NCBI GenBank assembly: GCA_027314795.1 | Contig: DAHVAE010000022.1 | Coordinates: 1-10,111 of the forward strand | Length of the DNA: 10,111 nucleotides | Source: Candidatus Saccharimonadota bacterium | GTDB lineage: Bacteria; Patescibacteriota; Saccharimonadia; Saccharimonadales; UBA4665 | Direction: 5' to 3' | Shown: in pieces, positions 5,694 through 6,929 of the stretch | How the letters are laid out: each line of letters opens with the position of its first letter | Numbering within the stretch: position 1 is the stretch's first letter | Notes under the pieces: generated by a model | What the model was told of the DNA's origin: nothing | Database searches by the model: none | The model's input: only the letters and a program-made list of their open reading frames with translations | Position numbers and translations under genes: made by a program

Positions 5694-6338
5694 ATGTCTT
5701 GGCTCCAAAAACGCCCTCAGATAAGTAATCCAACTCAGTTTTTTACCGTTGGGCTTAATACTACTGTTTTAATTGCTGGGCTAGGAAACCCAGGTAAAGT
5801 ATATACCGCTACCCGCCATAATATTGGCTTTCGATGTGTTGAAGAACTATGTAAGAAGACAGACGAATTCACTGGGTGGCAGTTAAAAAAAGACCTTAAA
5901 GTCGAGCTCAACTCTGCACAAATGTCAGATAAAAGGGTATTAGTTATTAGACCAACCACTTTCATGAATAATAGCGGCCAAGCTGTATCAGCGGTAGTAA
6001 ACTTCTATAAAATCCCAACAAGCAACATTTTAGTTATTCACGATGAACTCGATATAAACTTTGGCCAAATAAGATCCAGGGTAGGCGGTTCAGATGCTGG
6101 ACACAATGGAATCAAATCAATAACCGAGTCACTGGGAAATGAAAACTACGCTCGCATAAGAGTAGGCATAGGGCCTAAGAACCCTAAACTACTTGACTCT
6201 AAGGACTTCGTTTTAGCTAAATTTTCTGATGAAGAATCAAATCATCTGCCGAATCTATATAAAGAAGTGAATGCCTTGCTAACAGAGTATATCTATAGCG
6301 GCAAACTAGCTAGCGATACCAGATCATTCATAGTCTAA
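5694..6338 (+). CDS. pth: Peptidyl-tRNA hydrolase with N-terminal extension
   Basis: Pth cleaves the ester bond of peptidyl-tRNAs released from stalled ribosomes and recycles tRNA. All active-site elements are present: Asn32 in GLGNPG (29-34), catalytic His42 in TRHNIGF (40-46), Asn92 in TTFMNNSG (88-95), Asp117 in HDELD (116-120) and His137 in GHNGIKS (136-142). The protein has 214 residues; E. coli Pth has 194. Most of the excess is a 24-residue leader before VLIAGLGNPG, where typical Pth proteins start almost directly with this strand. The leader is not an annotation error: there is no ATG, GTG or TTG between 5694 and the motif, and an in-frame TAA lies at 5673-5675. The stop codon overlaps the U tract of the converging minus-strand RNA terminator. 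Confidence 0.96.
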   Translation: MSWLQKRPQISNPTQFFTVGLNTTVLIAGLGNPGKVYTATRHNIGFRCVEELCKKTDEFTGWQLKKDLKVELNSAQMSDKRVLVIRPTTFMNNSGQAVSAVVNFYKIPTSNILVIHDELDINFGQIRSRVGGSDAGHNGIKSITESLGNENYARIRVGIGPKNPKLLDSKDFVLAKFSDEESNHLPNLYKEVNALLTEYIYSGKLASDTRSFIV

Positions 6339-6382
6339 ACAAAAAGAGACTTCGGAGGGGGTGGGCACCGCCGAAGCCTCTT
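6337..6382 (-). terminator. Rho-independent terminator of the minus-strand RNA
   Basis: On the minus strand AAGAGGCTTCGG pairs with CCGAAGTCTCTT over 12 bp around a 15-nt loop and runs into TTTTTGTTT. One pair (6377 with 6349) is a G-U wobble on the minus strand but an A-C mismatch on the plus strand, and the U tract exists only on the minus strand, so the terminator faces left. The tract overlaps the pth stop codon. The hairpin may still slow plus-strand transcription out of pth, but it is not a proper terminator in that direction. Confidence 0.85.
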
Positions 6383-6648
6383 ATTGGAGACAACAAAAAT
6401 TGTCTCCGCTCCCTTCAACCCATCCCGGTGAAACTAAGAGGCTAAATATATTAAACATAGGCCTCCGTCGACCCTAAGGGGTCACCATTTAGGCTCACTT
6501 GAATACGGGAGTTTAAAGGGATTAGTTTGTTTTAGAGCGACTTTTTAAAGATAAGTGGAGGGTAACAACTTATTTTATACGCTCTAAAACAATCTAACAT
6601 TTGTTAGATGGGGTAAAGGTACTTGAGTCATATATTTCAGACTCATGA
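6337..6648 (-). ncRNA. Candidate structured non-coding RNA, unclassified, about 310 nt
   Basis: The gap between pth and the next protein gene holds a complete minus-strand transcription unit: a near-consensus promoter at 6655-6683, a start near 6648 and a strong terminator ending near 6337. In 5' to 3' order on the minus strand the RNA can form: a stem at 6640-6645/6624-6629; a 7-bp stem with 4-nt loop (6603-6609/6592-6598); a 13-bp perfect stem (6580-6592/6527-6539) continued by an inner stem 6568-6573/6551-6556; GACCC/GGGTC closing a 4-nt loop (6470-6483); an 8-bp perfect hairpin (6400-6407/6386-6393); then the terminator. Longer-range options include 6607-6612 with 6419-6424 and 6507-6511 with 6409-6413; some of these stems exclude each other. 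I see no tRNA-like end (tmRNA), no RNase P signature and no SRP domain IV motif. 6S RNA or a lineage-specific RNA remain possible. Confidence 0.75.
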
Positions 6649-6654
6649 ATTGCT

Positions 6655-6683
6655 ATTTTAACAAAATGATTATTTAATGTCAA
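6655..6683 (-). promoter_or_regulatory. Strong promoter of the minus-strand RNA
   Basis: On the minus strand TTGACA (6678-6683) is a perfect -35 hexamer, followed after exactly 17 bp by TAAAAT (6655-6660), 5 of 6 matches to the -10 consensus. Transcription would begin near 6648. It is among the best-matching promoters in the window and points away from the membrane-protein and topA genes. Confidence 0.8.
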
Positions 6684-6707: not shown

Positions 6708-6929
6708 ATGCAAATTGTTATTTTAATATTTGTTTACGCTTATGGTATATTAACTTTAGTGAAACGAATGATCACACTGGGCATGCTAATATTCTCAACC
6801 CTGTTTAGCTGGCTGGGCCAAGAAATAGACAAGGGTAATTGGCTTGGTGGTTGGAGTATTCTACTCGGGATTGTCGGTGCTTTTGTTGGTGTTTGGGTCG
6901 GATATAAAGCTTATAATTTGTATTTTTAA
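6708..6929 (+). CDS. Small two-helix membrane protein
   Basis: The frame encodes 73 residues with two hydrophobic segments: about 1-34 (with a Lys-Arg pair at 19-20) and about 46-70. Between them is a short polar stretch, GQEIDKGNW. The second helix, GGWSILLGIVGAFVGVWVGY, strongly resembles the C-terminal helix of the GlsB/YeaQ/YmgE (transglycosylase-associated) family, but the first half does not match that family clearly. The true start could be the ATG at 6768 or 6783, giving 53 or 48 residues; none of the three has a Shine-Dalgarno sequence. The topA -10 box lies inside its 3' end. Function is unknown; coding status rests on the membrane-protein composition and family-like motif. Confidence 0.65.
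   Translation: MQIVILIFVYAYGILTLVKRMITLGMLIFSTLFSWLGQEIDKGNWLGGWSILLGIVGAFVGVWVGYKAYNLYF
6912..6917 (+). promoter_or_regulatory. Candidate -10 box for topA
   Basis: A perfect TATAAT lies inside the last codons of the small membrane protein. It would give a start near 6924 and a leader of about 50 nt to the topA ATG. No good -35 hexamer is found 16-18 bp upstream, and the leader has no clear Shine-Dalgarno sequence. Confidence 0.4.

Follow-up and report, generated by a model that had tools for sequence, protein, structure and literature searches.

A probable gene of its own for a large, structured non-coding RNA conserved across an order of Saccharibacteria

The window, by which we mean the whole stretch of 10,111 nucleotides analysed here from a contig of Candidatus Saccharimonadota, carries on its minus strand a candidate RNA gene in the region between pth and topA. 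In agreement with the initial annotation, which had described a gap without a protein gene, the ORF scan detected no protein-coding ORF of 60 amino acids in the pth-topA gap and no ORF longer than 38 amino acids overlapping positions 6345-6650, and thus a protein-coding reading of the gap is rejected. A hydrophobic ORF of 73 residues (6708-6929, plus strand) is located between the RNA and topA; it has no match in Pfam, and relatives of it occupy the same place in many loci. The elements of the RNA gene are as follows.

6678..6683, minus strand: -35 box TTGACA, found by promoter scan and kept in relatives
6655..6663, minus strand: extended -10 box TGTTAAAAT, 17 nt downstream of the -35 box and kept in relatives
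6337..6648, minus strand: RNA gene of about 310 nt, beginning at the inferred start and ending just beyond the U tract
6624..6645, minus strand: 5' hairpin P1 (UGAGUC / GACUCA), 8 of 8 pairs changed on both sides in relatives
6610..6622, minus strand: C-rich leader GUACCUUUACCCC, a possible alternative partner of the P5 3' strand
6593..6608, minus strand: P2, UCUAAC (6608-6603) with GUUAGA (6598-6593), competing with outer P3
6527..6592, minus strand: P3, a 13-bp helix of UUGUUUUAGAGCG with CGCUCUAAAACAA, from folding and comparison
6598-6594 with 6525-6521, minus strand: outer extension of P3, GUUAG with CUAAU
6553..6571, minus strand: P4 hairpin with the near-invariant loop UUACCCUCC at 6565-6557
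6410..6521, minus strand: P5 closing helix, UCCCUUUAA (6521-6513) with UUGAAGGGA (6418-6410)
6419..6511, minus strand: P6-P10 branched domain within P5, from comparison of relatives
6419..6422, minus strand: UGGG, candidate pseudoknot partner of CCCA in the terminator loop, with no covariation
6386..6407, minus strand: optional hairpin GGAGACAA / UUGUCUCC (8-bp stem), absent in 7 of the 27 sequences of alignment A2
6341..6382, minus strand: terminator hairpin with U tract and near-invariant apical loop UGCCCACCC (6367-6359)

The minus-strand promoter proposed at the outset (TTGACA, 17 bp, TAAAAT) was found in its place: the boxes at 6683-6678 and 6660-6655 are separated by 17 nt, TG precedes the -10 box, and the score is 11 of 12. 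Four promoter-like sites occur in the 851-base region against 2.4 +/- 1.7 in shuffles, and a consensus match is weak evidence by itself; weight is carried by its conservation. By a threshold set on our own score, a TTGAC/T box followed at 16-18 nt by a -10-like hexamer is present in 106 of the 108 distinct members of the family (window included), with a spacer of exactly 17 nt in 94 of those 106. The RNA measures approximately 310 nt in the window and 255-527 nt among the members measured. The perfect stems reported initially, one of 13 bp (6592-6580 with 6539-6527) and one of 8 bp (within 6407-6386), were both recovered, as was the terminator stem with its U tract at 6382-6341, including the G-U pair. 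The list produced by our terminator scan lacks the window's terminator, probably because only loops of 3-8 were allowed. In 26 of 27 sequences P5 contains a U-G pair, and each of two inner helices contains a G-U pair (22 and 25 of 27). These wobble pairs settle the minus strand, which the initial annotation had also supported by a G-U pair of the terminator.

The minus strand folds with an energy of -106.7 kcal/mol (z -7.1), a value reached by none of 100 shuffles, and the plus strand folds well too (z -5.9). Since the evidence from the single sequence is modest, the number of promoter-like sites included, the case rests on comparison. RNAalifold applied to 26 full sequences gave 57 pairs, 29 of them changed on both sides. 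For the 3' structure drawn by hand on 27 sequences, compensatory changes were observed in 33 of 51 pairs, whereas the same structure slid by 1-3 columns yielded 6-15; 96.2% of cells are paired in the former, versus 39-51% in the latter. A second set of 24 sequences, of which 15 are divergent (L121-L135) and three rows (the window, L115 and L120) are shared with alignment A2, showed compensatory changes in 41 of 54 pairs and 94.3% of cells paired, against 40-53% in slid structures; this alignment, on which its slid and shuffled controls were run as well, was fitted to the model and leans towards it. Covariation in the pth-topA regions of relatives, to which the initial annotation had looked, is therefore present above the slid controls, as is characteristic of a structured non-coding RNA gene. 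Alignments A1 and A2 are without L012 and L026, which end before the terminator, A1 and A3 are without L015, which has a large insertion, and all three are without L024, where P5 was not caught by the pattern.

The individual helices differ in how much they vary. In the 5' arm of close relatives 8 of 25 pairs are changed on both sides, a number that 47 of 500 shuffles also reach, and 11 of the 18 P3 pairs are invariable; in divergent relatives such as L131 the P3 sequence is altered and the pairing retained. P5 has a mean pairing probability of 0.57 in single-sequence folding. The P6-P10 domain enclosed by it comprises CCCG/CGGG, GUGAG/UUUCAC, a small CC-UAAAU-GG hairpin, a GACCC/GGGUC hairpin and an arm at approximately 6468-6434, and looks to be missing in the shortest relatives (for instance, L133). 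The terminator stem is longer in the 24-sequence set, where two extra pairs form in all 24 sequences (at one of the two, A-U replaces G-C in 11 sequences) and another position is paired in 13; the extension leaves the nine-base loop UGCCCACCC.

Two loops are near-invariant. The P4 loop motif UACCCUCC is present in 106 of the 108 distinct members, none of which was gathered by means of it; one of the two others has ACCCUCU in its place and the second is interrupted by a contig end. The terminator loop UGCCCACCC is found in 107 of 108 members and GGUGGG 5' of it in 102 of 108; as 77 of the 108 were gathered by a pattern comprising the terminator loop and UUGAAGGG, and hence have both motifs by construction, the remaining 31 were counted apart, giving 30 of 31 for UGCCCACCC and 28 of 31 for GGUGGG. 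The RNA coordinates used in collecting members were those of R1, a covariance model of the 3' domain. Both loops are predicted to be unpaired, with mean probabilities of 0.91 for UACCCUCC (106 sequences) and 0.84 for UGCCCACCC (105 sequences). The putative pseudoknot strands CCCA and UGGG show no covariation, and its exceptions are the 6 of 108 members that lack GGUGGG and L018, in which UGGG is broken. GUUAG is predicted to pair with the 5' UCUAAC at a mean probability of 0.57 (75 sequences) and with the 3' CUAAC at 0.43 (96 sequences), and both partners (6593-6608 and 6521-6525 in the window) are retained in many relatives, so that a conformational switch between them is possible according to the folding model. 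The C-rich leader GUACCUUUACCCC could pair with the P5 3' strand, at a mean predicted probability of 0.22 (99 sequences).

The distribution of the RNA was analyzed with R1 (27 sequences) and with R2, a model of the 5' arm (28 sequences), which match the window at 6524-6337 and 6611-6513, respectively. An R1 match was detected in 38 of 40 genomes of approximately 0.6-1.6 Mb drawn evenly across the order, the window's own included, and in neither of the other two (G116 and G118). Of the 38 positives, 37 have a single match; G093 has a tandem second, weaker match to the 3' domain (L155:1234-1374 and 1501-1665). DNA similarity at E <= 0.01, in many cases partial, was observed in 155 of 198 genomes including the own one, and 28 of the 30 loci taken from this search are complete RNAs (window included), with promoter, principal stems and terminator in common. 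Under stricter filters, which miss true positives such as G125 (negative there, positive in the 40-genome search), 22 of 379 genomes of the phylum were positive: 21 of 32 in the order and, with a weak match of 23 bits, one of five others in the class, which by subtraction leaves 0 of about 342 genomes in the other classes. An exact gapped pattern run over named genomes retrieved 77 stretches, all but two of them labelled Saccharibacteria, Saccharimonadales, Saccharimonadia, Saccharimonas, Patescibacteria or simply 'bacterium'; viral contigs gave no match to it. The two exceptions, labelled Parcubacteria (L039) and Chlamydiae (L114), show the arrangement of pth and der known from Saccharibacteria and thus are probably mislabelled or misbinned contigs. 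On this sequence evidence, the RNA family is lineage-restricted and near-universal in the window's order.

No Rfam family (release 15) reaches or approaches its gathering score on the RNA in the window or in the loci of 20 relatives. Two low matches were dismissed: MIR4378 (28.7 bits, cut-off 90) reflects a mere long hairpin, and AaHKsRNA41 in L124 (23 bits, cut-off 97) falls outside the RNA. The segment GUUUUAGAGC of P3 has an apparent resemblance to CRISPR-type RNA, an identity rejected because divergent relatives change GUUUUAGAGC and keep the pairing. The initial annotation had recognised neither tmRNA, RNase P nor SRP RNA, and none of these models matches at the locus. RNase P RNA class A (RF00010) and tmRNA (RF00023) are large conserved RNAs similar in length to this one and have a housekeeping role such as is proposed for it, but each lies at a separate place in the window's genome (G000:C35 and G000:C68, respectively); of 60 relatives, 55 have a match for RNase P RNA and 44 one for tmRNA above the cut-off. 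SRP RNA, known as a universal RNA, was detected neither with RF00169 (0 of 60 and 0 of 39 genomes; controls 11 of 14 and 12 of 14) nor with RF01854 (0 of 40 genomes; controls 10 of 14). Its protein Ffh exceeded the cut-off in 0 of 13 genomes, with one match of 18.7 bits, while all 14 controls matched and 10 of them exceeded it. Thus, these searches detected no SRP RNA and no Ffh over the cut-off though most controls match, and the Saccharibacteria genomes examined may lack the signal recognition particle. The RNA described here differs from a missing SRP RNA in that neither SRP model matches it. Among the titles and abstract openings listed in searches of open-licence literature, none describes such an RNA, and it represents a real RNA family that is, as far as Rfam and these titles and abstract openings show, undescribed.

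The above analysis suggests, at a confidence we regard as good, that the locus is an independent gene, with its own sigma-70 type promoter and intrinsic terminator, whose product is a large, structured non-coding RNA of a new family in this order of Saccharibacteria and would act in trans as a particle. The gene is well supported and the novelty lies in the RNA family; the mechanism is what we infer from it. The size, independence, conservation and single copy of the RNA make a trans-acting particle the best proposal, namely a stable RNA-protein complex that would have a housekeeping role. The long P3/P4 arm would offer UACCCUCC to a partner, either a protein or another RNA, the terminator hairpin may fold back through pairing of its loop CCCA with UGGG beside P5, and the GUUAG strand could switch between its two conserved partners.

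A branched core with near-invariant loops, peripheral hairpins that vary and pairings that may alternate would also suit a self-contained ribozyme or a ligand-binding RNA with a chemistry of its own. We consider this unlikely, as no gene under its control is seen downstream and the terminator faces another gene. Unlike a riboswitch or leader, the RNA has no same-strand gene downstream: it terminates towards pth, topA being divergent, as the initial annotation had argued.

An alternative role is suggested by the P4 loop itself. CCUCC is the core of the anti-Shine-Dalgarno sequence, and UACCCUCC, predicted unpaired and near-invariant, contains it, so that the RNA might be a base-pairing regulator masking Shine-Dalgarno sequences, in the manner of the anti-Shine-Dalgarno sRNA RsaE, with which it shares a C-rich, predicted unpaired loop. 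Plain complementary motifs are indeed enriched: AGGAG precedes 47 and GGAGG 26 of 530 ORFs (6 and 3, or 4 and 2, in control stretches), GGAGGG precedes 8 of 530 (1 and 0 in controls), and GAGGGTA occurs 77 times in 780 kb against 55.7 expected. However, GGAGG precedes just 1.1% of 374 ORFs in a set that over-represents the same neighbour genes, besides the 26 of 530 elsewhere, and none of the longer complements is in excess: GAGGGT precedes 3 of 530 ORFs (4 and 1 in controls), GGAGGGTA occurs 13 times (13.0 expected) and GGAGGGT 47 times (54.8 expected). As the motifs precede few genes and longer complements are not in excess, a role of this kind is weakened, and we regard it as quite improbable. 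GGTGGGC is also above expectation (123 against 87.3). Shine-Dalgarno motifs precede few genes in L163-L201 and L039-L115. A -10-like TATACT is located just upstream of the start codon of 33 of 530 ORFs (6 and 1 in controls) and is the top hexamer in 374 other ORFs, an enrichment that, judged from sequence, would be expected for leaderless mRNAs. Pairing of five conserved strands with 23S rRNA found no support in the 23S-bearing stretch of CP025011 (16S lies outside it): the longest perfect complements run to 6-9, which 23-100% of shuffles attain as well.

Of the two options named initially, 6S RNA, here as a very divergent form that binds RNA polymerase, is now highly improbable, while the other, a family restricted to the lineage, is supported by covariation, by the lack of an Rfam match and by a range that covers the order with one weak match in the class. 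Similarly to 6S RNA (RF00013), the RNA stands alone with its own promoter and has an order-wide housekeeping distribution. A hidden 6S RNA is conceivable because 6S is recognised weakly in this order (7 of 60 genomes at E <= 0.001, none over the cut-off), none turns up close to RNase P in the window's own genome or in G097 and G109, and two genomes with a weak 6S candidate gave no match to this RNA (by R1 in G116, by DNA similarity in G033). However, 6S RNA is a long hairpin whose central open bubble mimics a promoter, whereas the covarying fold here is branched with two C-rich loops, and the Rfam 6S model does not match it. Moreover, five of the seven weak candidates share a contig with RNase P at a distance of 0.4-2.6 kb, that of G116 among those near RNase P, and two are on other contigs of draft genomes; G006, G019 and G094 have this RNA as well, on a contig other than the candidate's. 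Loci L031-L034 and L203 carry sub-threshold 6S candidates, several of them near RNase P, and a lineage-specific 6S model is probably needed.

Finally, the RNA could act in cis on pth, as an antisense or 3' end element, or be no more than a bidirectional terminator, given that its end and the pth stop codon are at most a few bases apart in the window and that pth is tail-to-tail with it in 102 of 112 loci; this has very little probability, as conservation extends to the promoter and the 5' domain, which are distant from pth, and in 54 of the 102 the terminator loop and pth are more than 100 bases apart, in some more than 1 kb. These 112 loci have the exact terminator loop (77 come from the pattern scan), and some repeat a genome or stop at contig borders; topA is divergent in 94 of them and the contrary arrangement occurs in none. 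The RNA therefore faces pth, as first described, wherever pth is seen, but the distance from the loop to pth is 100 bases or less in no more than 48 of the 102 loci, and an antisense role on pth is not general.

The preferred reading, a trans-acting RNA of its own family, places it beside OLE, GOLLD, ROOL and raiA, orphan large bacterial RNAs that are complex, lineage-restricted and were first found by comparison. It is large, complex, lineage-restricted and found by comparison as they are, and is set apart from them by the search of Rfam release 15, a copy that may not hold all four. Few structured RNAs are retained throughout an entire bacterial order, and many of those proved to be core machines or major regulators. 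It is possible, though doubtful, that the RNA is a large RNA machine of a new class, which would be near-universal within a single order of ultrasmall bacteria, alternate between two folds via GUUAG and perform a core task in cells with no detected SRP and few Shine-Dalgarno motifs. The few cultured members of Saccharibacteria are epibionts growing on other bacteria (PMC10633639). In cultivable, transformable Saccharibacteria the RNA is a ready target for gene removal and for RNA-protein pull-down.
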